Shown in pieces: positions 5,814 to 48,300 of a stretch of DNA of 64,000 nt. How positions within the stretch are numbered: the stretch's first letter is position 1; each line of letters begins with the position of its first letter. Made by a program: the position numbers and the translations under genes. The DNA lies in assembly GCA_025917655.1 (NCBI GenBank), contig CP084620.1, positions 434,001 through 498,000 on the forward strand. Reading direction: 5' to 3'. The notes under the pieces are model-generated. The model did no database searches. It was not told the DNA's origin and saw only the letters and a list, made by a program, of their open reading frames with translations. The stretch comes from Chlorella sorokiniana (Eukaryota > Chlorophyta > Trebouxiophyceae > Chlorellales > Chlorellaceae).

Positions 5814-8800
5814 CGCCTGTTCCCCCTACCGCCCTTCTCTGCATGCAGCCAGCTGCGGCAAGCATGCACTGTGCAGCTTTCGGCGCCACTGGAGGAATTT
5901 GTGGCGCAGCACATGCTGGGCACGACCTGGGGGCAGCAGGCTGAAGGTGCTGGCACACATGGGGTGTAGGTTGCATCAACCGCCAGCATGTCTACTAGAC
6001 TGCCATAGGGCTCGCTGAAGGGCTTGTCTTCTGCAGGGCCGTTGCTGCGGCAGGCTGAATCGTGCTGTGCTCTGTTCTGCCCTGCTTGCTGCTGCAGCCG
6101 CAGCTGATCCTGCGCTGCACGAGGCTGAACTGCAACGGCGCGAGGAGGAAGCGCTTGCGGTAGCCCAGCAGCTGCTTGAAGAGGAGGAGGAGCGGGATGC
6201 AGAAGCGAAGAGGAAGCAGCAGCAGGAGGAAGAAAAGCGGCAGGCGGCGGCGGCGGCGGCGGCAGCAGCAAGCGGAGGAGCGTGCTCGCCGCAAGCAACA
6301 GCAGCGGAAAGAGGAGGCGGCGCTGAGGAAGAGGAAGCAGGAGGAGGAAGCGGCGGCACTGCGGCGAGAGCAGCAGCGGCGAGAGGAGGAGGCAGAGCGA
6401 CGAGAGCAAGAGCGGCGCGAACAAGCGGCCATGTTGCAGCAGCAGCAGTGGCTTGCAGCCGACGCCCCTCCAGGTGGGCAGGAGCAGGGGCGCCTTGCTG
6501 CAATCAGCATGGCGCCTGACCGTCCGCCCAGCCAGCAGCCTCCGGCAGCACTGCAGCCTGCCTCTGCAGCGCAGCAGGAGCGGGCCTCAAACCATCAGAG
6601 CCAGCAGCAGCAGATGCCGCGGCAGCAGCAGCTGCCGCGGCCCTCGGCTCTGGAGCCGCACTCCAGGGGAGCAGGTGCCAGCCAACCAGCAGGGGAGCAG
6701 CACGGCGATGAGGCAGGGAGCCGCCCTGCCAGCTGCTCCACAGCAGGCGATGCACAGCGGTCGCATCACGCGCGGCAAGCAGCAGCGGCGGCAGCACCAG
6801 CGTGGGCACTACCAGCGGTGGAGCAGCCGGCGCCGTTCTCACTGCGGCCCACAGCCGACACATTGGCAGCTTCAGGCTCAGCGCACGCAGCGGTAAAGAA
6901 TGCTGAGCTGGAGCGGGCCATGCTGGGGCTGGGGCTGGGCAGCAGCGAGGCGCGCCGCCGCCGCCGCAGGACCCGCCCGCAGACGGCTGGGCCGACCCAG
7001 CCACCGCGCTGCGCATCGCGGCACAAGCGGCTGCCCACAGGCTGCTGCCGGCACTGGAGCAGCCCCCGCTGCCAACAGCACCCTCTGATGCGGCCTCATG
7101 GGCCGCTCGAGGGCACAACATTCCACCTGACGAGAGGCCAGCTGGGCAGCATGCCGAGGCACCACTGGCAATGTGGTCAACTCCAAGCGAGCAGGGCAGC
7201 CCGTCGCCCGTGCGCACCCCAGACCCCACGCCCGCAGAAGCAGCAGCAGCCCGGGCAGCGACGGACTCGCTGCCGTTCCCGCCAGCCGCTGGGGCCACAG
7301 CTTGTAAAAAGGCCGCGGCGCTGGCGCTGCCGGGCCTGCGCAACGAGGCCGGCGACTTCAACTGCTTTCTCAACGTGGTGCTGCAGTGCCTGTGGCGCTG
7401 CGCCGACTTCCGGCGGCAGGTGGGAAAGCGCGAGGAAGCCTGCCACTCTGACGCCATCCATCATGCCTCGCTGAGTGGTGTGGGCTTCATCTGCTGCCGT
7501 GAACTCTCTGCTTTGCATTTGGCCCCCACCCCATCCCCCAACCTCGCCATTCCCACCCAATCCCACCACCCCTCCTGGAGCGCAGGTGCTGTCGTGGCCC
7601 CCTACTGTATATCGAGCAGACCCTGTCTTGCTGAACTTAGCGACACTGTTCCAGGAGCTGACGCGTGCAGACAGTGGCACATCCTCAGGCAGCTTGGTGC
7701 GGCACCAGCACGTCGTGATTGACCCCACGCCGTTGCGGGAGGCCATCAACGCGCTGCCTGGCCAGGAGTTCAAGCTGGGTGGGTGTTCAGGGCTTGCAGA
7801 CTGTTGATGATTCCCCTGGTTCTGCTGCCTTGCGGTCGTCCAATGTTCTGCATTCTCCTCGTTGGCAGGCGAGATGAGCGATGCCGGCGAGCTGCTGCTG
7901 GTGCTGTTTGAGCACATGAAGGGCGTGGCGCCAGCGGTAGCAGGCACTGCTGTGGATGCCGTGTTTGGGCTGCGTGTGGCAGAAGTGGTGGAGTGCCAGA
8001 ACTGCGGGCGGCAGACGCAGCAGAGCAACTACACCCAGGTGGGTATGCATGGGAGTGAATCAACAATCACTAATCAAGCATTGTTTGATACAAACTGATC
8101 CATCAGTGTTGCCCCACTGCAGTACTTCTTCAACACTTTTGCTGCTGCGCTGCGCTCTTCGTTGGCGGCTGGGCCAGACCCTGGCTTTGGCGCCCGCCTC
8201 CGTCGCATTGAGGATGAGCAGCTGAAATCGTGCGACACGGATGTTGGTGAGAGGAAACTGCAGCAGCATTTGGAAGGCGTCAGGATTGCGCAGATATAAT
8301 GTCTGATCATTTGCACCAGAGCTGGCCTCCGTCGCTGCCCTCCTGCCACAGGCGGCTGCGGCACGCTGCACCCCGTGCGACAGGAGCTGGAAGGGGATCC
8401 GCCCAAAGTGTTCACGCTGCAGCTTGTGTGGGAGAGCCACGAGGAGGAGCCTGGCGCTATCAACGCCACTCTTGCTGCCGTGGCCGAACAGGTGGGTGGG
8501 GGCTGCACTTGAGGGGCGTTTACGACTGACTGCGAACTGCTGCACTTCTGCACTTCTGCGAACTTCTGCACTGCTTGCTGCAGACCACTGCTTGTCATGT
8601 TTGCCCCCACCCCCCACCTCCCATCCCTGCAGATTGACCTGGGCCAGCTGTATGCCGACCTCATGCCCGGCACCTTGTACCGCCTGCGGGCCATGGTGTG
8701 CTATTACGGCCGCCACTACTCGGCCTTTGTGCACCTGCCGCAGCTGTCGCGGTGGGTGACGTTTGACGACAGCTCTGCTGGCTCTATCGGTACGTGGTAT

Positions 8801-15100: not shown

Positions 15101-18100
15101 CGCGGCGTTGCTTTGCACGTGTGGGCGGGTGCCCTGTGCCTTCCAGCTCAGTCCATCCACCCACCCACACAGCAACCGCAGCACAGCGGCACCCCTATCC
15201 CACCACAACCCCGCCGTGCCCGCTGCAGCCAGCTGCGGCAGGCCTGCGCGGTGCAGCTGACGGCGCCGCTGGAGGACTTTGTGGCGCAGGAGGTGCTGGG
15301 CACGACCTGGGGGCAGCAGGCTGCAGCAGGTGCGCCGCGCTTTGCCTCCACACGGCAGCTCAACAGTCCATTCAGCATGCGCCAGGCTGCCTGGCCGCCA
15401 TGGCTGGCTTGAAGCAGGGATTCGGCTGCCTGCTGCTGCCATGCCGTCGCTCCACCCTTGCACCGCGTCCTGCTGTCGTGCAGCCGTCGAGGCGCGGGAG
15501 CATGCAAAGGCTCAAGCGGCGGCCAGGGAGGCTGCAGCGGAAGCGCAGAAAGCAGAGTCCGCCGCGCTGGCCCTGCTGGCGGAAGAGGAGGAGGAGCTGG
15601 CAGCCCAGCAGCGCAAGCAGAAGAAGGAGGAGAAGCGGCGGGCGGCAAAGGCGAGGCAGCAGCAGCAGCGTGAGGAGGAGCAGGCACGGCGGCAGCAGGA
15701 GGAACGGGAGAACGAGGCTCGGCGCCAGCTGCAGCAGCGCAAAGAGGAGGAGGGCGGCGCGGCTGCCTTGCGAACAGCAGCAGGCAGAGCTGGCGGTACC
15801 AGCGAAGCGTGACCAACACTACAAAGTGGACGCAGCGGCGGGCGGGCAGGACCGGGAGCGGGGCAGGCGGAGATCCCGTTCCTAGAGCAGTCAAGCGGCG
15901 TTCGCCGCCGCGTCAGCAGCAGCCCCCGCAGCAACACGCACCGTCGCTGCAGCAGCAGCAGCAGCACCAGCAACAGGCACCGCCGCATCAGCAGAAGGGT
16001 GCCCAGCAGCAGGAGGCCCAGAGGGAAGGGCGGCTGCTGGTGGCTCCGCCGCAGCCCCCGCTGCAGCCACAGCAGCAAGCGCCGCAGGGCAGGCGCAGCG
16101 ACAGGGTTGCCCACCAGGGGGAGGGGCAGCTGTTTGCGGCAGGCAGTGTGGCCGCAGGCCAACAAAGCTCCAGCTCGCGGGCCAACGGCCGCAGCCGCGG
16201 CAACGACACACGTGCGGTGCAGCCGACTGCTGAGGCTGGCAGTTCCCCAGCCCATGCTCCCCTCTCAGGCCCCTCGGTGCCTTCCCAGCAGCAGCCCGGT
16301 GCACCAAAGCAGCTCCCAGCTGCTGGCAACGCTCCCCAAAGGCAGCTGGCCGAGAGTGGCCGCCAGCTGTCCTGGGCAACAGTCACCAAGCAGCACAGCA
16401 AAGCGGCAGCTGTGCAGCCGCGCCCAGCCGCCCAGGCTGGCAGAGCGCATAGCAGTGGCGGCGACGTTCCGGGCGTCGCAGATGGGGCCCGCCTAAGCGG
16501 CAGTGAAGCTGGTTCGCAGCCCCGTCATGCTCCTGTTGCTGGCCGCCGCCGTGCCGCGCGCGACGCAGCCCCGTTTCCCACGACGCTTGCGCGGTCTCGT
16601 CCTCGCCCCATGCCACAGCAGCAGCAGTTGGAAGCGGACCGACTGCAGACCCAGCGGCAGCAGCAGCGACCAAATCGGCTGCCACAGCAGCAGCAACGGG
16701 AGGGACTGCAGGTGAAGCAGGGTCAGCACTCGAGGCCATGGCGGCGGAGGCGGCAGTCATTGCAGATGCTGAGGCGCCAGTCATCGAGGCGGCAGCAGGA
16801 TCTTTACCTGCAATGCAGGCAGCGCCAACGCCGCCAGCAGCACAGCCCTCGTGGGGCCCGGACCCCGCGCAGCCTTCAGAGTGTCCAGATCTTGCGGCAG
16901 TGGAGGAAGCAGAACTGAAGCTGGCTCTGGCAGGGCTCGGGTTGGGGGCTGATGGCAGCAGAGACAGCAGCCCGCAGCCAGCTGCAGGCCTCGCATACGC
17001 CGCCGCTGCAACCTCGCCGCGCAGCGGCCAGGAGGCGGGGCAGGCCCCAGCGGTCGTGTCCGAAGCGCCGCCAGCTGGACCCCCTCCTGGCTCCTGGGCC
17101 GCTCGCGTGGCCAAGCGGCCAGGGCTTGCAGCTTTGCGCTCCACAGCAGGGCAGCAGGTGCCAGCCGACTCTGGCTGGTCGTTTGTGGGCGAGCAGGGCA
17201 GCCCGCCCCGTGTGCCCACCCCGGAGGTCGTCCCCACAGAAGCTGCAGCGGCAGCCAGGGCAGCAGGCGAAACGCTGCCGCTGCTGCAGCGCGGCGCAAC
17301 CGCAGCGCGTGGCGGTGCGGAGCGCTCCAAAGGCCCATCGCTGGCGCTGCCGGGCCTGCGCAACGAGGCCGGCGACTTCAACTGCTTCCTCAACGTGGTG
17401 CTTCAGTGCCTGTGGCGCTGCGCCGACTTCCGGCAGCAGGTAATGGGCTCCCACCCCTGCTGTGTTTCCTCGCTTTGCAGCGGCCTCCAGTCCCCGTGTA
17501 TTGACAGTCTCGCGCCTTCAGGCTGTGAAATATTCCATTTGCCCAACCCTATGCGCAGGTGCTATCCTGGCCGTCCGAGGTTTACTGTGCAGACCCTGTG
17601 CTGCACTCGTTTGCGGCACTGTTTCAGGAGCTGACGCGTGCAGATGTTGTTGCCGCCACCAGCAGCGTTGTAGAGCAGCAGCACGTCGTGATCGACCCAA
17701 CTCCGCTGCGGGAAGCCATCAATGGCCTGCCCGGCCAGGAGTTCAAGCTGGGTGTGTGCCTGCTCGGCTTCGAAAGCATCAAAGCTGCACCTTATGTTTG
17801 TCAGAGTTGATTGCTTGCCGCCTTCCCACACCCCTGTTGTTCTGGTTTGTGCAGGGGAGATGAGCGATGCCGGCGAGCTGCTGCTGGTGCTGTTTGAGCA
17901 CATGAAGGGCGTGGCGCCAGCGGTGGCAGGCGCTGCTGTGGATGCCGTGTTTGGGCTGCGAGTGGCAGAGGCGGTGGCCTGCCACATGTGCGGGCGGGAG
18001 ACGCAGCAGAGCAGCTACACCCAGGTATGCAGAGGAGTGCATCTTTTCCAAACGTTTCCTAACAAGGTATACACGAAGTACCACGTCAAACTTCCTTTGT

Positions 18101-18823
18101 CCGCAGTACTTTTTCAATGCCTTTGCTGCTGCGCTGCGCTCCTCGCTGGCGGCTGGGCCAGACCCGGCTTTGGCGCCCGCCTGCGCCGCATTGAGGACGA
18201 GCACAAGAAGTCGTGCGACACGGATGTTGGTGAGAGGGAGGTGCAGAACCCTGTAGCCGGTTTGAGAACTGCGCTGGCAGAGATTTCGAAGGGTGCAGAA
18301 TCACTGTTGGCCGTCGTTTCCCTCCCGCCGCAGGCGGCTGCGGCACGCTGCACCCCGTGCGACAGGAGCTGGAGGGGGAGCCGCCCCGTGTGTTTACGCT
18401 GCAGCTGGTGTGGGAGAGCCACGAGGAGGAGCCCGCCGCTATAGGGGCCACCCTGCGTGCAGTCGCGGAGCAGGTGGAAGACTCCTGAGCTGCTCAAATT
18501 GTCTGCTCAGAGTTCGTCTGCATGCCCTCTATCCTGTTTTTGCAGCAAAGGATTTCAATGTTCCTCTTCTCGCGCCATCCCTGCAGATTGACCTGGGCCA
18601 GCTGTATGCCGACCTCATGCCCGGCACCCTGTACCGCCTGCGGGCCATGGTGTGCTACTACGGCCGCCACTACTCGGCCTTCGTGCAGCTGCCGCAGCTG
18701 TCGCGGTGGGTGACGTTCGACGACAGTTCAGCGGGGTCGATCGGTGCTTGGTACGATGTGCGGATGCGGTGCGAGAGCGGGCGGGTGCAGCCCAGCGTGC
18801 TGTTTTACGAGGCCGTCAGCTGA
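9121..18823 (+). CDS. USP53/54-type ubiquitin-specific protease-like protein, tandem copy 2
   Basis: Second, apparently full-length copy. It starts with a Gly/Arg-rich leader (MPRGGRKGGRGGRGVQAK, donor GTGCGA). Exons parallel those of copy 1: the LRWRALDLVR exon (14819-15035) matches LHWRALDVIR (about 5425-5645), and QLRQACAVQLTAPLEDF (15229 on) matches the exon near 5850. A coiled coil (Glu/Arg/Gln-rich, 15480-15780) and a Gln/Pro/Ala-rich linker (15900-16900) precede the USP domain. The Cys-box Cys codon is 17383-17385, CxxC (ACHMC) is near 17983 and the His codon is 18668-18670; the stop is 18821-18823. The family cleaves ubiquitin from proteins or is a catalytically weak ubiquitin binder; Cys, His and Asp positions all look intact. 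N-terminal exons have diverged strongly from copy 1, the catalytic ones hardly at all. Apparent frame slips occur near 9610, 11008 and 12385. Confidence 0.88.
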
Positions 18824-24126: not shown

Positions 24127-27100
24127 TCAGCCGCCGTCCCGAAAGACGAGCTTGGCGCTGCCCAGGGCGACGCGCCACTCGGCTGCCCTGTGACTCGCGC
24201 TCATGGGCAGCTCTACAAGGGTCAGGGCCCCGGGAACAGAGATCCTCGGGCTGGCGGTGCTGCCGCCGCCGCTGCCTTGCTGGCCTGTGAAGGCTGTGCA
24301 CGGGCCGCCGATGCGCTGGCATCCACCCAGGTGCAGCTGGCGCAGGTTGGCGCAGGCGCGCAGGGCTGCTGCAACAGCGGCGGCCGTCAGCAGGCGGCAG
24401 CCGCGCAGGGAGAAGACCTCAAGGTGGGGGCAGCAGGCGGCGGCCGCCGCCGCCGCTGCATCATCCAGCGCCGCGGCGCCGTCCAGCCGCAGCGTGCGCA
24501 GCACGAGGCTGCCGCCGCCGCCGCTGCTGTCGGCATCTGCACAGAGCTCCCTGAACGGCGCCCGCTGACGCCCCGGCACCCCGTCGCCTCCAGCTGCTGC
24601 AGGCCCGGCAGTCCGCGCAGCAGCAGCGCCAGTTCTGCATCCCCCACATGCGTCGCGGCCGCCAGGGCCAAGCGCGTGAGGCCCGCGCAGCACGCCGCCA
24701 GGGCCGCGCACAGCCCAGGCCCCGCCGCCAGGCCGCAGCCGCCCAGCTGCAGAGACTTGAGGCGGGGGCAGCAGGCGGCCAGAATCGCCAGGTCAGCTTC
24801 TGCCAGGCTCTCGCAAGACGCAAGCTCCAGCCGCAGCAGCGGCGACAAGCCGTCGGGGCCGCGCAGGGCGGCTGCACCGCCGCCGCTGCTGCCGTCGCTG
24901 CTGCTGCCGTCGCTGCTGCGGGCTTGCCCCGCCAGCCAGGCCAGCGCCTCTCGCGTGCAGGCCTGGCGGGGCAGGGCAGCCCGCTGCAGCCGCGTGGCGG
25001 CGGCGGTGGTGACCGCGGTACGGAAGCGGGACAGGGCCGCCCGCTGCGCTCCATGCCAGGCCTCGCCGCTGCCGCTGCCGCCGTGCGCCGCTCCCAACAG
25101 CTGATGCTGCTGGTGCTCCTGCTCGGGCGCCACCGCTGCCCCCTCCTCGCTGGCTGGCAGCTCTCCCCACGCCCCGCCGCCCGGCTGTGGACCCAGCGAC
25201 TGCCTCCCCGCCTGCCCCTGCTCCTGCTGCCGCTGCTGCTCCTGGGCGTGGCCAGGGAAAGGCGTGTAGCAGCCCAGCGCTGCCGCCGTGAGCTGCGAGC
25301 AGGCGGCGACGTCCAGCCGGGCCAGCTGGGTGCAGCGGCTGAGCACCTGCAGCACGCCGCTGTCGCTCAGCCGCTTGCAGCCGCGCAGCTGCAGGCTGGA
25401 GAGGCTGCCCAGGGCGGCGCAGCGCAGCAGAACGGCATCCGTTATCGACAGGCCAGAGGCGTTGAGGGCCGCCACTTCGCACGGCGGCGGTGGCGAAGGC
25501 GGCAGCGGCGTCGGCAGGAGCCCCCGCTCTGCGTGGCTTGGTCGCCGCCGGCCGTGCCCAGCAGGCACAGCGCGTCGTCGCCCACGCCGCCCTCCCGCAG
25601 CCGCGGTGCCTTGCCGCGCTGGAAGCGCGAGCCGGGCGGCTGCGCCGCACGCCGGAGCAGCCGGACAGGTCGAGCTCTCGCAGGCGCCGCAGCGAGCGCA
25701 GAGCTGGCGCCAGGCTGGCGTCGTCCAGCCCCGTGCAGCCCGCAGCGCGCAGCCGCTGCAGTGACCTGCGGTGTGGATGTGTGTGGGGGGGGCATTGCCT
25801 GGCACTGTGTTCCTGCCGCAACACAGGACGCTCTGCTTGGTAGCAGTGCGGCAGAGTCTGCGCGCTAGCCGCATATCAAAGCATTTACTGGCATACACAG
25901 TAGAAGGAAGGAGAAGGAGAGCCGAGAGCTCGCCTGCAGTGGGCCGCCGCCAGCTCAGCGATCTCTCCAGCCCCGGACGCGCCGCTGACGTCGAGCGCCT
26001 GCAGCTGCGCCAAGCCGGCGGGGCCCAGCGAAGCCAGCACACCAGCCGGGCTGCCGGGCGGCCACTTGTCGCCGCCGGCAGCAGCGGGGGAGGCCCCCAC
26101 GCGCAGCCGCCTCGGCCATGCCGTCGCAAGCGGCCAAGCAGCGCGGGCAGGCGGCGTCCGGGGGCGGCGAGAGCAAGCTGAAGGGCAGGGGAGGCGGCGG
26201 CGGGCGGCCGGGAGCCGAGGGGGTGCAGTTCGAGGTGGCCGCCCAGGGCAGCCTCCCAGTGGCCCTGCAGCAGCGGTACAAGCAGTACATGTCTGCTGAC
26301 CGAACAATACAAGCGGCGGATGCCCAGCCAATTGGTGCGGCTGCGCAGCCAGGCGCCAGCGCGTGCCGCCCGTGCCGACAAGGTGGAGTGTAAATGCCTA
26401 CTACCGTCACAAGCAAGGGCCCTGTAGCTTCTTGTACTGTGATGATTAAAGAGCGCTTGGCCCCAGCCCCTGCCCCCACCTGGACCTCTCTCAGCTCCGA
26501 GTGCGTCAGCAGCTGCTGCGCGGGGCCATGCCCAGAGCAGCGGGGCCCCCAGCTGCTAGCTCCAGCAGGGGCAGCACCGCCGCATCTTCACCGCCGCCGC
26601 CGCCGCCGCCGGCAGCCGCGCTTTCGCCAGCCGCTGTGCCGGCCGCTGCACCCGCCGCGTCAGCACCCGTCGCCGGACCGGCCGCAGGGCAGCGCTGGAG
26701 GTGCAGCAGCGAGCGCTTGGCGCGCAGCAGGGCCGCCAGGCCCAGGCCGGTGCAGCGGCTGCCGCTGGCAACCAGGCGCTGCAGGCGGCCGCAGCAGCGC
26801 AGCGCCAGCCACAGCAGCAGGCAGTCGCCGGCGGCGGTGCCTGAAACGTCCAGGCATCGGAGCTGCAGCCCGTGGGATGGGTGAGGAGGTGGGACGGAGG
26901 GTGAACAAGAGGGTGGTCATTGGGGGTGGCTGGCAGACCAAGGGTGAACAACATGCAAGGTGCCGATTGGGCGTTTAAAAAAAACACAAAACAGGCGGGG
27001 CGCAAACCAGGTTTGGGAGCGAAAGGGTCGCAGCGCGGTGCAGACGGCGGCGCACGGCTCTGCTCACCCGCGGCAGAGCCAGCCCCTGCAACGGGAAGCG

Positions 27101-28370
27101 CAGCTGCTGCGGCGCCCCCGCCGCCCGCTGCCCCTCCCTCGCCGCCCGCCGCCGCATCATCAATCCAGTGCCAATGCTCCTGCGCCTGCTGCCCATCTCC
27201 TATACCAATACCACCAAAAGCCGGGCCCTGGCCCGCGGCAGCACCCATGCCGCCGTTGAGAGCGTCGTAGGGCCCAGCGACGGCCCCATTGCCGGCAGGG
27301 CGCCGGGCGGCAGGCTGGCAGTGACCAGGACGCCGCAGGACAGCCGCAGGCAGCCGCTGAGAGTGAGCTCCTCCAGGAGGGGCGTGCTCGCCAGCACCTG
27401 CACTTGCAAACCAGAGATATCCGTGGTCGAAATGCATGAAGAGCTGCAAGGAAGGCTGCAAAAGGCAGGCAGCCGGTGCGGGCCGAAGCAAAGGCGGCGG
27501 TGCGGGGCGGCAGCGGCATCTCGCCTGGCGTACGGTGCGGTCCCGCAGCTGCCAGCAGCCGCCCAGGTCCAGGGCCGTCAGCTGGCTGCAGGCCTGCAGC
27601 CCCGGCAGCGAAGACAGCTGCCAGCAGCCCGACAGCGAGAGCGAGCGCAGGGCGGGGGCGGCGGGGCCGGCGGTAAGCGCCGCCACCGCCGCCGTCGTGA
27701 GGCGGGGGCATTTGCCCAGGTCAAGCTGCTGCAGCCCCGGACAGCTCAGCGCCAGCATGGCGACGTCTGCGTCTGCAAGCCGGGCCACGCCCGCACGCTC
27801 AGCGTGCGCAGCAGGGGCAGCGGCGGGCGCAGCAGGCGGGCCAGGCTGGCCCGCCCCAGGCGGGCGCAGCCGGCAAAGCTGGCGGCCGCGGCGCCCGCCA
27901 GCACGCCTTCCGCATCCTCCCGGTCAGCAGGGCACAGGTGAAGTTGTCCAGAAGCTGCCAGCTGGCCAGCAGCAGCAGGAGCTCCGCACGCAGCTCCTGA
28001 GGCAGCGCCGCCGCTCCCGCTCCCAGGCCGCCTGCATCTGCGCCGCCGCAGCCAGTCCCCGAGCCGGCCCCGCATTGGTGTCGCACCAGCGCACTGGCAA
28101 CCACACGCAGGCAGCGCTGCCGCAGCGGCGGCAGTGGCGGAGCTGCTGCCGACATGCCGCCAGGCCAGCCTGCGGAGCTCAAGCCTGGGCTGCACCGCTG
28201 CTGCTGGGCGCTGGGCTGGGCGCCTGCTGCTGCTGCTGCTGCTGCGCGTCCAGCCGCCGCTGCTCCTCCTCGAAATGCTTCTTCAACGGCTCGTTGAACA
28301 AGTAGAAGCCGCTTGAGGCTCCTACCCTGCATGGGCATTGGGGGAAGCAGGCCAGGCAATCCGTCGCCAC
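24127..28370 (-). CDS. Leucine-rich-repeat protein of the cysteine-containing (AMN1 / F-box LRR) type
   Basis: At least sixteen LRRs of the Cys-containing class typical of F-box/LRR adaptors of SCF ubiquitin ligases, in order on the minus strand: LQQLDLGKCPRLTTAAVAAL (about 27740), LTALDLGGCWQL (27570), LEELTLSGCLRLS (27380), LQALDVSGASGAG (26000), LRELDLSGCSGV (25680), LSSLQLRGCKRLSDSGVLQV (25390), LARLDVAACSQLT (25320), LLRLELASCESLAEADL (24830), LKSLQLGGCGL (24750), LEVFSLRGCRLLTAAAVAAA (24410) and LRQLHLGGCQRIGG (24330). Upstream, PPLPPLRQRCLRVVASALV and ALPQELRAELLLLLASWQLL (about 28120-27950) could be a degenerate F-box-like or RAD7-like cap, but I cannot confirm an F-box. The start at 28370 is the least certain part. 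The frame slips several times (near 27790, 27280, 25670 and 24580), so the protein is composite. The substrate or partner is unknown. Confidence 0.75.
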
Positions 28371-35557: not shown

Positions 35558-38065
35558 ATGCCCAACACCGGGAAGCGGGCTGACCCGCCCACGGAGGAGG
35601 AAGGCCAGGATAGTGACAGGACCCGATCCAGACAGGTGAGAGGCCTACAGCGGGGGCATGGCCCACACTAGCCGCAGAACAGGTTACCTCACGGAGAGTG
35701 TTCTTTGCTGAGCCCTCCCTCGCTCTTGCCCGCTGCTGCACGCAGGTTCTACTGCCCACATCCTGGTGAGTCAACGAGCCACGGCGGCGGCGCTGCAAGC
35801 CACCAATTTGAGGCTGTGGTCCCTCCAAAGAGCCCAGCCCACTTGTTGGTTCATAGCAGCTTGCGGGCCCCCATTTCGCGCCCTGACGGCGGCCAAAGCA
35901 TTAATCGGCGCCTGTCCTCCTCCCCCGCCCGCAGGCTGCAACCGCAGCTTTGCCGAGCTCTGGCGGCTGAAGGTGCACTTCCGCGCGCCCCCGATGTTCG
36001 CGGCTCTGGCAAGGAGCGCGGCCACGGCACTGAGCTCAAGTTCTGCCCCAAGTGTGGCAAGGACCTGCGCCCCGGCAAGCACCATGTGGGCTGCTCTGCG
36101 GGCAAGAGCGCGCCGCGGCAGGCGGCCAAGCGGCAGCGGCAGGTGCGCGCACGCTTGGCATTTTGGCGCGCCAGAGAGGGCACCCTTCTCCGTGCCGCCG
36201 TGCTGCCAGCGCCCGCATCCTGCTGGGAGTCATCTGCTGGCTTTCACGCGGAGCGGAGCTGGGTGCTCCGCATCGCTCGGGATCGCTCGGGGTTGCTGCA
36301 CGTTGCTGACCAGGCGTCCGCCCCGCGCCCGCGCGCACCCCCTCTCCTTCCCCTCTGCAGCAGCAGATGTCCACGACAACAGAGAGCGCGCAGGGGGTGA
36401 CCGCGGGGACCACCACGGAGCAGACGACGAGCAGCTGGGAGCAGGCGGTGCGGCGCCAGGCGGCCAAGCAGCGCCAGGCCAGCGAGGCCGAGTCGACCCA
36501 GCGCAGCAAGCGGCTGGAGGCCTGCCGCATCGAGACGCTGGTGCAGAACCTGGATGCCCAGCACACGGGAGACCTGCTGTTCCGGTCCAACGCAGCGGCG
36601 GCGGCAGCCGGGCCGCGGCCGCCGCACGCGCTGGGCGACGGCGGCGCCCCCGCCGCAGCCGCAGCAGCACTTTTTCGGCCACGCCCAGCCCGGCATGGTG
36701 CCGCAGCAGCAGGCGGGGCTGCTGCCCGCGCACCTGGGCGCGCAGCAGCAGCACGGCGGGCACGCGGGGCAGGGGCAGGGCGCGCCGGCGCAGCTGCCGC
36801 ACCTCGACCTGCCGCAGCACGGCGAGCTGGCGCACCGCCCGCTCTCGCCCTCCCCGCTGGACCTGTTTGGCGACCCGTTTGGTGCCAGCAACGGCCACGG
36901 CGGCGGCGGGGGGCCGCCGCTGGGGCGCACCAAGACCCCTTTGGCGGCCACGGAGACGAGCTGCGCATCCCGTCGCCGCCGCCGCTGCCCGCCGACTGGG
37001 ACGTCGGCCCGCGCTCCGGCCTCCTCTTTGACTTTGACCAGTTTGACGCCAACAAGCGGCACCAGGTGCGCTCCCCGCCTCCCAGCAATCGGCGGCTTTG
37101 GATGCCTGGGGCTGCGGCGGCATGGGCTGTCCCCCTCCAACAAGGCCTCGGAACGGCAGGCGTCCAGCCCTTCTCCCTCCCCGTCCTCCCTCCTCCTCAC
37201 CCCCTCCCCCTCTCCCCCACCGGAAACCAACTGGACCGCAGGCGGGCACGAGCGCTCCCCTGGTGACGGTGACCACCGCCATGAACCCGGTGGACATGCT
37301 CAACCCGTCTGACGACTACATCTGGCAGATCCTGTTTGCGGGGAGAACGACGCGGTGCCCAAGCGCGTCACGGGTGAGCCCGGCGCTCACCACGCTCACC
37401 AGCCTGGGTGCCTGTTTTGCGACGCCACCGCGCCGCACCCGCTGGCGCTGCCGCCGTGGCGGCGTACCTTCGTACCAGCCAACGGGCTGGCCGCCTCCTG
37501 ACGCTCCCCGTGGCTCACGCATCCCGCGCTCCGCCTGCTGTTGCCCCCTCTGCCTGCAGCGCACTTGCACCACCCGCCTTCGGCCTCACTGAGTTACCTG
37601 GATGAGGCGGACCCGCTGCTGGACGCGATACTGTCTGAAGACCTGGGGCCGCTGCCGCAGGCGCCACATCAGCAGGCGCAGCACGCGCAGCAGCAGCACG
37701 CGCAGCACGCGCAGCAGGGCCAGCAGGGGCCGCCGCAGCAGCAGTACGCAGCGCAGGGCGGGCACGGGCATGGGCACGGGCACGCGAACGGGCATGTGCA
37801 CGGTCTGAGCGGGGGCCTGGACCCTGTGGGCGACCGGCTGGTGCCCATGGGCAACGGCTCTGCGGCGCACCACCTGCACCACGCTGCGGCACAGCAGCAG
37901 CAGCAACAGCACATGCACCCCAGCCTGGGGGCCGTGTTCCAGCAGCACCAGGCGGCGGTCGCGCAGCACGGCGGCCAGGCGCAGCACCGCAACGGCTACG
38001 GCCCACACGGGCCCGGCGCCGAGCTGGCGCCGCCGGCGGTCAAGCTGGACAGCACGTTTGTTTGA
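35558..38065 (+). CDS. CCM1: CCM1/CIA5 homologue, zinc-dependent master regulator of the CO2-concentrating mechanism
   Basis: In Chlamydomonas CCM1/CIA5 switches on low-CO2 genes and binds zinc through C36, C41, H54, C77 and C80 (from memory); cia5 carries H54Y. Here FYCPHPGC spans exons 35746-35765 and 35935-36142 with Cys codons 35753-35755 and 35937-35939 (C-x4-C). SFAELWRLKVH places His at 35976-35978, thirteen residues after the second Cys. VRGSGKERGHGTELKFCPKC gives Cys codons 36044-36046 and 36053-36055. Spacing is C-x4-C-x12-H-x22-C-x2-C, identical to CCM1, if one base is allowed for in the C5 run at 35988-35992 where the frame shifts. Later exons are Gln/Gly/His-rich (37600-38000), like the long low-complexity body of CCM1, with conserved-looking VTTAMNPVDMLNPSDDYIWQ (about 37270-37330) and the end VKLDSTFV. 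Exon 1 (35558-35635, MPNTGKRADPPTEEEG) has a plausible start but joins exon 2 out of phase as read. More slips lie in 36600-36960. Confidence 0.9.
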
Positions 38066-39576: not shown

Positions 39577-42195
39577 ATGGCGGCTGCTGTGACCACCTGC
39601 AACTTTCAGTCCAGCGTAGGCCGCTTGCAGGCCGGAAAGGGGGCTGCAAGCATTCCCGAAGGGTTCCAACTGTCTGTAACAGCGCAGTTCAGACCCCTGT
39701 CGGCACCACAGACCGCACCCAGCTTGGAAAATCAGGTGAGCTGCTGACGCTTGTTTACGCAGCGGTATATACTTGTGCCATCGCACTGCAGGCCGTGTCT
39801 TGTGAGCAGAAGGCATCAATGTGCTCCGTGCCTCACCGAGCACCGGCGGCGCCTCTCCCCCGCCTGCCCTTGTGTGCAGGTTTGGAGGTGTCCTCGCTGG
39901 GGCTGGGAGCCTGGTCATGGGGCGATCGCAGCCGCTACTGGCAGAACGAGCTTGACAAGCCATCGAACAGAACGGTGGGGTCCTGGCGTGCCTCGGTGTT
40001 TCCGGCCGGCCGCGTCGCGCAGCACCCAGCTCGGCCCCAGCCGCCTAATAGCCAGCTGGCCGCTCCCACCCCCTGCCGCCGCTGCTTCCCCCTCTGCAGG
40101 CGTACAAGGCAATGATTGACTCCGGAATCGATTTCCTGGACACCGCCGAAGTGTGCGTGAGGGTGGGACGGAGGGCCCCCTGGCCGCACAGGTCCCCTCA
40201 CCCCACCTTTGGGTGCCTCCCGGCCGCCAGCCGCCAGCCGCCCCAGAGTGCCAGCCAGCACCGCCTTCTCTCTGATCCCAACCTTCCCTCCTCCCCCTTT
40301 GCTTTCTGCACGTGTTCCTGCGTTCGTGCAGGTACGGTTTTGGGTACAGCGAGGAGTTCGTGAACGAGTTCATGACTGAGACCGGCACCAAGGGCAGGGT
40401 CGTGGTTGCCACCAAGTTTGCGCCGCTGCCCTGGCGCCAGACCCCCGGCAGCCTGGTGGGCGCGTGCCGCAAGAGCCTGCAGCGGCTGGGCCTCCCCAAG
40501 ATGGGGCTCTACATTCAGCACTGGTGGGTGGGTGGTATGCTTGTGTCGGGGTGTGGGTGGGTGGTTGTGGGGCGGTGTGTACAATGTGCCGCTGGTAGTG
40601 AATGTAGTGCTGGCTGTTGATGTGGGTGTGTGAGTGAATTTGATGGGGTTGAGGGGATAGAGCGGGGGTGGCGTGTGGGAGGCGGGCGGGCATTGGGCGG
40701 GCGCCGCCCAGTGTGACGGCAGTGCGCTCCGAGCACCCGCCTTAGCCTTGCGCCATCATGCCACACACGCTGCCATGCCCACATGCCCCTGCCCTTGACC
40801 CTTCTGCCCCACCTCCACCACCCGCCCTCCCTCCCGCCCCTGCCCTACCTCAGGCCTGGCTTCTTCCTGAACGCTTTCGCAAACGACGCCTACCTGGAAG
40901 GCCTGGCGCAGGTGTGGGGCTGGGGTGGCTGGTGCCGAGCGGTGTACCTGGCTTACCTCTGCCGAGACCTCGCGAGGGTTGCTGAATGTTGTGTTGTGAG
41001 TATTTTTTTTTTTTTTTTTTCCTGCTCCCAGGTGAAGGAGCTGGGGCTGGCGGATGCGGTGGGCGTCAGCAACTTCAACGAAGCGCGCGTTCGCAAGGCG
41101 GCAAAGGTGCTGGAGGCGCGGGGACGTGCCTGTCTTCCAACCAAGTGCAGTACAGCCTGCTGTACCGCAAACCGGAGACCAACGGGGTGATGGAGGCCTG
41201 CAGGCGGGTCGGGGGGGGCGACGGGCCGAGGGGCGGACGCTGCGCGCCCTTGTGGGGCCCTCGGTTATCTCCTGACTTGGCATCTGCGCCGGCGCTGCGT
41301 GGCCGCTCGGCGGCCGCCCGCGTGCAGGCTGCACGATGGTACCATCACAGCCTGGGCTGGCTGGGGGATGAGGCCGCACAGGCTCCCCGCCGCAGCCCGG
41401 CCCCTCCAGCGACCTCTTCAGTGGCGTCACCTTCCCTTTCTGTTTTTGCGGCTGCTTTCCCGCCTGCAGGGAAGCGGGCACCACGCTGGTGGCCTACTCC
41501 CCGCTCTGCCAAGGCCTGCTGACGGGCAAGTACTCCAAGGACAACCGCCCCAGCGGCCCCGCGCGCAGCTGTTCACCGAGGAGCGGTACCGCTCGGTGCA
41601 GGTGCGCTGCAGGGTGGCGCTCCTGTCAGCGTGGTGCAGATGTCGGGGCAGGCATGCTGCGAGCGGGACCTGAGCCATCGCACCCGGATAGGGCCTGGAG
41701 CAGCCTGCAGACCTTCCCCGCTGTAGCGCCCCCAACAGCCAGCTGCCCCTAACCTGAACCTGCTCTCCGCGCGCGCACCCCGCCCGCCCCCTCCCCCCCC
41801 CCCCAGTCTTTGCTGGATTGCATGAAGGCCATCGCCGAGGATCAGGGCGGCAAGACGCTGGGGCAGGTGCACTCGCGGCCACGCTGGCGGCTTGCCGCCG
41901 CTTGCATCGGCGCCTCCCGGCACGAGTGCCTGGTCCTGTCGCTGCCGGATTTCTGCCAGCCCTTCCTGCCGCCCGCTGTTCGGCTCAATCCAGCAACCTT
42001 TTGTTGCTTCCAGGTGGCCATCAACTGGACCATCTGCAAGGGTGCCCTGCCCATCCCCGGCGCCAAGAACGCGGCGCAGGTGTCGGAAGCGGCGGGGCGC
42101 TGGGCTGGCGCCTGAGCGAGGCGCAGGTGGCTGAGCTGGACGCGGTCAGCAGCCGCATCCCCAGCTCCACAGGGGCTCCTTTTGAGAACTGGTAA
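39577..42195 (+). CDS. Aldo/keto reductase, chloroplast, At1g06690-like
   Basis: NAD(P)H-linked oxidoreductase of the AKR (TIM-barrel) superfamily. Exon 1 (39577-39735) encodes a leader starting [20 protein letters not shown], plausible as a plastid signal. The barrel follows: [18 protein letters not shown] (about 39890), [20 protein letters not shown] (catalytic Asp and Tyr, about 40105-40345), [13 protein letters not shown] (Lys near 40415), GLYIQHWPGF (His near 40520, across an intron), [39 protein letters not shown] (about 41140-41200), [20 protein letters not shown] and [11 protein letters not shown], ending STGAPFENW at 42195. The order and wording match Arabidopsis At1g06690, whose substrate is not established. 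All four catalytic residues are present. Frame slips occur near 41120 and 41137, and near 42090. The exon 1 to exon 2 junction is out of phase as read. Confidence 0.9.
41003..41020. repeat. T18 tract, intronic polypyrimidine
   Basis: Run of eighteen T just before the acceptor of the [12 protein letters not shown] exon of the aldo/keto reductase. It probably acts as the polypyrimidine tract of that intron. Confidence 0.85.
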
Positions 42196-45300: not shown

Positions 45301-48300
45301 GGCGGTGGCCGCGGTGGTCAGCTGAAGCGTGGCTGGCGCCGTTGAGGCAGCCGTCGCAGGGCGCTCGGCGCGGGGCATGCCCGGCCGCTGCGCCAGCCCC
45401 GCCTCTGCCGCCCATGGGTGCAGGGTCAGCAGGCCGGACTCTGCCGCCGCTGCCAGGTGGCGGCCATCGGGGAGAAGCACAGGTGGCTGCATAAGAATGC
45501 AAGGTTAATGTCGGGACGACAATCGCAGCCGGTAGTTGACAAGCAGCGCGATTCAGGCACTGGAACACACGCAGGCGGTACAAAACTGCAGCGGCCGCAC
45601 GTCACCCACCTCACGGTGCCACTGGCAGTCAGGGCGCCGCCGCCGCCGCCCGCCGCCCACAGAACGCGGAGCGCCACCTCGCCCGCCGCCGCCGCCGCCG
45701 CGGTGGCCGCTGGCGCCGCAGCTGCCTGCAGCACGGCCAGAGCGCCGCCCTTGGCAGCCACCGCCAACAAGTGGCTGGCTGCGCTGTCGCCGCCTGCAGG
45801 CGCTTCTGCTTCCGCAGCCAGCAGGGCTGGCAGGCTGCCTGGCGGCGGCAGCGCGAACGCGGCGAGCCACGGCCGCCGCTGCTCGCTGCCCAGCCAGGCG
45901 GGAGCGTCAGGAGGCACCCCAGGCGCGGCCGCCGCAGCCGCAGCAGCAACGGCGGCGCCCAGCTGGCTGCCGACATCCAGGGGGCAGCCAGCGCGGCGGC
46001 CAGCCTGCCGCCCCGCGGGCCCCAGCCGCCGCCGCCGTGCTTGCCGCCGGCGGCAGGGAAGAGGTCGGCGAGGTGCAGCGGCAGCGGGGGCCACAGCAGC
46101 AGCGTACCGTCAGCAGACAGGCTGTACAGCCGTGCCGTGGGCTGCTGTACCGCCTCGCTGGGGGCAGTCAGCGGCGACCAGCGCACATCCAGCACAGAGC
46201 CCTGTTTGGGAAAGGGGATTGCAGGATTCAGGACACAACGATCAACACATATGCGCATTTTTGCTCGGTCTGTCTGGCTTGCAGCTTTGCCATAAGCAGC
46301 AGGCGGGGAGGCGCCGCGCAAGCAGCAGCTCCTCTGCTTCCACCGCTTGGCAGCGCCCGCGGCAGGCTCGCCTGGTGCTTGATGGGCATCAGCAGCGCCT
46401 GCTCTCGGCTGGGCAGCAGCAGCCCCAGGCTGCCGTCCTCACACCCAAACGCCAGGGCAGCCGACGCCGCCGACGCCGCGGGCGCGCCGTCGGCGCCGGC
46501 CTCGGCGGCGGCGCCCGGCGGCGGCAGCGGCTGCCACGCGGCGGCGGTGGGCTTCTCGCCGACGCCCTGCCACAGCACGAGCTGCTGGTGCCGCGCGTGG
46601 TCGGGGGAGCGGCGGGCGGCGGCTGTGGCCGCCAGCGGCTGCACCCGCACCGTCTTGTCGCCGCAGGCCGCCGCCAGCAGGAGCGGGAGCGGCGGCTGCT
46701 CGTGCGCCCCCTGGCTCCTGCTGGGACTCCTCCTGCTGCTGCTGCTGCTGCTCCTCACCGTGAATCGCTTCTCTCCCTTGCTGCTGCTGGCCCTGCTCCT
46801 GGGGCAGGGGGTCATCAACAGCGAGGCCCTCGCTGGGCGGCGGCGGCGGCGGCGGCGGCGGCGGCACCTCGCCGCCCCCTCGCCGGTTGCAGGGGAGTCG
46901 CTGAAGACTGAGCCCACGCTCTCGACTGCTGGCGTGGAGGGCGCTGGAGGAGGCGGCACAGCACCCTCTGGCAGCTGCCCCTCTTGCTGCTCATCCTGCC
47001 CTGCTGGCGGCGGCAGCCGGGCGGCACGGTGGGCGGCACCAGCAGGCTCAGCGCATACGCGTGGCCCCCAGCCCCGTCAGGCGCCACGCCACCGCCGCCC
47101 GCCTCCAGGCAGCGCTGGCAGCGCTGGAGCCGGCCGCTTCGCGCCGCCAGGACCCCGCGGGCTCTTCGGCAGCGGCGGTGGCCGCTGCAGCTGCTGCTGT
47201 GCCGGGGTGCAGCAGCTGTGCAACCGTCACCGATCGGTCCATGCTGGTGCTGATGATCTGCAGCAGCGGCTGTGCCTCAGCCTGGCCGCTGGGCTGACCC
47301 TCCTCACCGCCACCAAGCGACGGCGGCGGCAGGGTGGCGACGTGCAGGAGAAGACGGTGCGGGCGTGCTGGCTGGGCAGGCTGATGGGGGCTGCCGCTGC
47401 TGCCTGCGGTGCTGCGTTGGGTGCGCTGCTGGATGAACGGCGCCAGCTGGCGGCCGCTTCCGCCCGCCCCGCTGCTGGCGGCGCCGCTGCAGGCGGCGGG
47501 ACCGCAGGGGCGCAGCGGCGGCGCCGTCAGCAGGCAGGGCCACCCGCCACGCGAGGATGCCGCCGCCATGGCTCGTGCTGAGAACCCACACATGCTGCTG
47601 CTCCTGCTGCTGGGGGCTTGCTTTGCACCTGTTGGCTGTCGCCCGCCCCCACGCTTGCAGGCTCTGCTGCCTCTCCTGCTGCAACTGTTGCCAACGGCAG
47701 CGGCGGCGGCGGGACCACAGCCGCAGAGAGCCACAGTCGGCTCGTCTGGCTGGAGGTCAGGCCGCCGTGGGGCTTGGGCAGCCGCAGGGTGGCCGCCAGT
47801 CGCGGCTGGGGCTCGCCGCCGCCGCCGCCGCCGTCGAAGGGCGGCGGTGCCGCTGGCGGCAGGCAGTAGACCCGCAACGCACCGTCGGCGCCGCTGGATA
47901 CGAGCACCTCCCACGCAGGCGGCCCAGGGAAGGCCTGCTCAGCTGCCGCAGCCGCCTCCACCAGCTGCTGCTCGGCGTGAAGCGGCGCTGTCGCGGGCGG
48001 CGATGCCTCTACAGCATCCCCAGCTGCTGCAGGCTCGGGCGGCGGCGGCGGCGGCGGCGGCGGCGGAGGCTCCTCGGCGGCAGCAGCGTCGCTGCTGGCT
48101 GGGGCCTGCTGGGCCGGCTGCTGCCCAGCTCCACTGGCACCGTCTGGTGCACTGCTGCTGCCGTTCTCGTTCCCAGGCGCGGCTGATCCCGCTTCGTCGG
48201 GCAATGCTGCAGGGCTGGGAGCAGCCGGCGCTGCCCCCGCCGCCATGCTGGCGGCCGCCGCCTGTCGGGGTCTGGCGCGGCGCACCAGCGCACGCAGTGC

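Follow-up and report, generated by a model that had tools for sequence, protein, structure and literature searches.

A probable CCM1/CIA5 orthologue with a putative two-zinc module and acidic-hydrophobic clusters in a compact algal genome

Known CCM1/CIA5 proteins

CIA5/CCM1 is described as lineage-restricted in the available part of a 2026 review (PMC13389267), which gives a Volvox orthologue with 51% identity, states that the function of the protein in Coccomyxa is not demonstrated, and mentions recent work in which CIA5 bound a GC-rich promoter motif in vitro. As for Coccomyxa subellipsoidea C-169, the accessible portion of PMC3446292 lists CIA5/CCM1 in this alga, a trebouxiophyte orthologue known here by that listing; the host of the gene described below probably belongs to the same class, judging from the size and base composition of its genome and from its CCM1-, CBP1- and LCIB-type genes. 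Regarding the Chlamydomonas protein, an excerpt of PMC13368412 describes zinc sites at two places, with a C2H2 finger spanning residues 35-70 and a further site within residues 70-100, and identifies the change of H54 to Tyr as that of cia5; its activation region is placed in the last 130 residues by the consulted part of another review (PMC8320531).

The gene under study lies in the window C4:434001-498000, a stretch of 64,000 nucleotides with a GC content of 62-75% (2-kb steps), which belongs to a 38.8-Mb genome assembled in 15 contigs; no published account of it was found in the literature searched. It apparently adds a member to CCM1/CIA5, from a compact genome that also carries genes of partner and target type.

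Gene structure

The gene is spliced and occupies positions 35558-38065 of the plus strand; in these coordinates, in the strand and in the presence of a C5 run at 35988-35992, it is as the sequence-only reading had described it. It encodes about 551 residues in six exons, with the stop codon ending at 38065 (Table 1). The five introns are 110-218 nt long, each with a GT donor and a CAG acceptor, and their phases are consistent at every junction from exon 2 onward; exons 1 and 2 are in a phase conflict of one base, which implies either a further slip in exon 1 or a start elsewhere. Long open frames of the minus strand run across the gene; these were discounted because the codon map retains only plus-strand segments there.

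Table 1. Exons of the CCM1-like gene (positions within the window)
Feature	Position	Strand	Content	Flanking sequence
Exon 1, as modelled	35558..35635	+	MPNTGKRADPPTEEEGQDSDRTRSRQ	donor GTGAGA
Exon 2 (20 nt)	35746..35765	+	first zinc Cys (FYCPHPG)	GCACGCAG and GTGAGT
Exon 3	35935..36142	+	remaining zinc module, then basic stretch ending KRQRQ	
Exon 3, order of elements	35935..36142	+	C35, H48, frame break 35988-35992, H64, C71, C74, H83/H84, C87	
Exon 4	36361..37065	+	low-complexity linker, acidic-hydrophobic clusters PLDLFGDPFG and LLFDFDQFDAN, one PPLP motif	
Exon 5	37242..37373	+	VTTAMNPVDMLNPSDDYIWQILF..ENDAVPKRVT (block singled out by the sequence-only reading)	donor GTGAGC at 37374
Exon 6	37560..38065	+	top-scoring acidic-hydrophobic cluster YLDEADPLLDAILSEDLGPL, then Q/H-rich tail up to the stop	

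Zinc module

The ligand spacing claimed for the N-terminal core, C-x4-C-x12-H-x22-C-x2-C with the His affected in cia5, was found once the C5 run is read through, and corresponds to C30, C35, H48, C71 and C74 (read-through numbering, X standing for a single residue where the frame breaks). The core is invisible in any raw frame because an intron splits it between its first two cysteines, encoded by exons 2 and 3; the five-ligand pattern had no match in the six raw frames of the window and none in 30 mononucleotide shuffles. The chance expectation per six-frame window, calculated from residue frequencies and ignoring the freedom that splicing and frame breaks allow, is 0.025 matches for five ligands and about 2.5e-6 for eight. 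In Chlamydomonas CCM1, the ligands corresponding to these five are H54 and the cysteines that we take to be C36, C41, C77 and C80; each number is six lower here if exon 1 is as modelled.

The description of the module as a full five-residue zinc site was an understatement: H64 would close the first site, and H83 or H84 with C87 the second, so that the candidate ligands are eight and not five. Site 1 would be a C2H2-like finger made of C30, C35, H48 and H64, in which the distal His replaces the usual second one, while site 2 would have the form C-x2-C...H..C, with C71, C74, H83 or H84, and C87. As regards layout, the first 110 residues present two groups of candidate ligands (30, 35, 48, 64 and 71, 74, 83/84, 87), and the two zinc sites published for Chlamydomonas CIA5 accommodate the additional ones, H64 being equivalent to position 70. 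We infer that the N-terminal module binds two zinc ions; by analogy with Chlamydomonas, the stability of the protein would depend on zinc.

The same finger could belong to some other algal zinc-finger regulator, of C2H2 or C2HC type, that has this spacing by chance or through remote relationship and does not control the CO2-concentrating mechanism (CCM). Among PDB sequences, finger 1 is indeed best matched by C2H2 fingers, those of ZNF410 (E 1.8e-7) and YY1 (E 8.5e-6), with which it shares the C-x4-C-x12-H half, and Pfam gave nothing but zinc-finger matches below cut-off (zf-C2HC_2 with E 1.6e-4, zf-C2H2 with 17 bits against 25.2). However, ZNF410 and YY1 have their second His 3-5 residues past the first, and at this distance none is present here: H48 is followed by FRAP, the next His comes 16 residues on, and its place would have to be taken by the distal H64. 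In addition, the spacing as a whole, up to and including the second site, agrees with CCM1, and the genome contains partner-type domains; such a regulator is regarded as very unlikely.

Identity and copy number

Judged from its sequence, the gene is probably the CCM1/CIA5 of a trebouxiophyte alga. This identity, already put forward by the sequence-only reading, is backed by the ligand spacing, the N-terminal position, the two-site layout, the lack of a second copy in the search described below, and the CBP1/ZNG3-type domains and LCIB-family genes of the same genome; what that reading understated were the ligands, given as five, and the frame breaks, given as a single slip. Compared by layout with Chlamydomonas reinhardtii CCM1/CIA5, the protein has the same spacing, including the cia5 His, and the two sites within about the first 100 residues, followed by a long remainder of low complexity, as is presumably the case in Chlamydomonas; it is shorter, about 551 residues against what we take to be 699.

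As for further copies, none was found in the genome among the best candidates scored: the zinc core returned its own exons and one weak match (E 0.5), and the downstream block matched itself only. No relatives of the zinc core were found in IMG/VR (viral) or GTDB (prokaryotic), and none of the downstream block in GTDB, two collections that are uninformative on algae.

Taken as a whole, the gene very probably encodes a CCM1/CIA5 orthologue with a two-zinc module and activation clusters, which would be nuclear, bound to a partner and able to induce the CCM. The functional part of this reading follows the analogy with Chlamydomonas: the protein would be nuclear, accompanied by a partner of CobW/WW type (CBP1/ZNG3), and at low CO2 it would switch on CO2-concentrating genes; its partner binding and its target genes are those expected from the Chlamydomonas protein.

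Frame breaks

The slip at the C5 run is present, but it is not the single one that had been allowed for: four in-exon frame breaks were read by hand (35988-35992, ~36645, ~36938 and ~37340), each placeable at a G/C run, and to these must be added the disagreement in phase of exon 1 with exon 2. Such an accumulation in one gene could denote a decaying CCM1 pseudogene, whose breaks are real and whose host has lost the regulator; the hand-counted density, four breaks per 1.65 kb of exon, is higher than in a control based on conserved domains, although the latter is a less sensitive test than reading by hand. In this control (102 rows of Pfam matches to four families, covering 18,273 bases and leaving out one lone LCIB row below cut-off at C4:825773), four adjacent pairs shift frame with no more than 20 bases between them; LCIB copies account for two of the pairs, an HSP70 and the CBP1-type gene for one each, and the gaps leave no room for an intron. 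The breaks in this HSP70 and in the CBP1-type gene also show G/C runs. Over 300 aligned columns, no substitution separates the three LCIB copies on C2, but single-base indels occur at three of the columns, of which two lie in C runs.

In 23.1 kb of sequence predicted as coding, a codon model placed 23 breaks, 2 of them in the 1.15 kb of the CCM1-like gene and 21 in 22.0 kb elsewhere in the window. The model is crude; it handles each strand separately, with some places giving a signal on both, and of the four breaks that hand reading found in this gene it recovers two. With three settings, it placed 21, 23 and 17 breaks in the window, and two in the CCM1-like gene each time. Moreover, the splice sites, the ligands and long open coding stretches of the gene are all intact, and a pseudogene is considered most improbable. 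Sequencing or assembly errors are favoured over decay because the frame breaks are not peculiar to this gene, with the reservation that the controls are imperfect and that its hand count is high.

The codon model also predicts frame breaks in other genes of the window, for instance at 24586-25665, 27794-27926 and 46556-46714; therefore, gene models taken from the present assembly need care.

Downstream block and acidic-hydrophobic clusters

Downstream of the zinc module the protein is of low complexity, rich in G, A, Q, P and H, and the sequence-only reading had singled out one block of it, encoded by exon 5, VTTAMNPVDMLNPSDDYIWQ (VTTAMNPVDMLNPSDDYIWQILF), as a possible second conserved element, perhaps a region for activation or partner binding. 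The clusters of this part were scored as the sum of hydrophobic and net acidic residues in 20-residue windows from residue 101, a simple count and not a trained predictor: 61 of these windows pass, where shuffles give 17.8 on average, and none of 2000 shuffles reached 61 or attained the top cluster score. The top clusters are YLDEADPLLDAILSEDLGPL, DMLNPSDDYIWQILFXENDA and DWDVGPRSGLLFDFDQFDAN. The block does exceed the shuffles, but it is neither the sole cluster of this kind nor the strongest by score. Its role as an activation region is to be narrowed in the same way: as one cluster among several that go beyond the shuffles, it is plausibly part of such a region, and the acidic-hydrophobic clusters together, the block included, would form the transcription-activating part of the protein.

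Their position differs from that of the activation region placed at the C-terminal 130 residues in Chlamydomonas: the strongest clusters of the present protein are about 135-235 residues from the C-terminus, upstream of a final stretch of 130 residues rich in Q and H. For the block and the next cluster, a search of PDB sequences gave no match with E of 10 or less. As for short motifs, no PPxY was found in the protein, and PPLP occurs a single time, as SPPPLPADW, in exon 4.

Partner-type and target-type genes

The available part of PMC12891040 confines WW-domain CobW proteins to Chlorophyceae and Trebouxiophyceae, mirroring CCM1, gives the domain and motif features of CBP1, and reports that this protein represses CCM genes at high CO2. 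An excerpt of PMC13368412, which gives the GCxCC motif for ZNG3, disagrees on the role of the partner, as central CCM genes are mostly unchanged in zng3 mutants. CBP1 and ZNG3 seem to be one protein, because the ZNG3 paper (PMC13368412, in the part consulted) refers to the CBP1 study for the mutants that it uses.

In the present genome, the CCM1-like gene co-occurs with domains of this type: matches to cobW, CobW_C and WW follow one another in this order within 2.3 kb, at C2:3300618-3302861, together with the motifs GFLGAGKT, GCVCC, LLETTG and NKID. The locus has in common with CBP1/ZNG3 the three domains in order and GFLGAGKT, GCxCC, LETTG and NKID, a comparison made by features, in which the order and spacing of the domains are read as one protein. 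Regarding the LCIB family (PF18599), its domains were found at four loci above cut-off. Three of these are near-identical genes within about 29 kb (C2:1816538-1845140), one of them on the opposite strand, and the fourth locus is on C7; the trio may reflect amplification of a CO2-concentrating gene at this place or, in part, a duplication introduced by the assembly.

A broader scheme is offered tentatively and is, on balance, unlikely: the zinc-linked CCM1-CBP1 switch would work outside the Chlamydomonas lineage, with the two-zinc module and the acidic-aromatic clusters as the parts that matter, and the WW domain of the partner would dock on PPLP (SPPPLPADW), masking the adjoining clusters when CO2 is plentiful. 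Since CBP1/ZNG3-type domains and genes of the LCIB family accompany what appears to be a CCM1 in this compact genome, the question could be addressed in the alga itself.

Other genes in the window

Two genes on the plus strand, 7309-8770 and 17266-18814, are similar to each other, as judged by eye from their translations, and lie about 10 kb apart; the second has a Pfam match to the ubiquitin hydrolase family UCH. The next gene downstream of the CCM1-like gene, at 40336-40524, is aldo/keto reductase-like (Pfam Aldo_ket_red, one exon).
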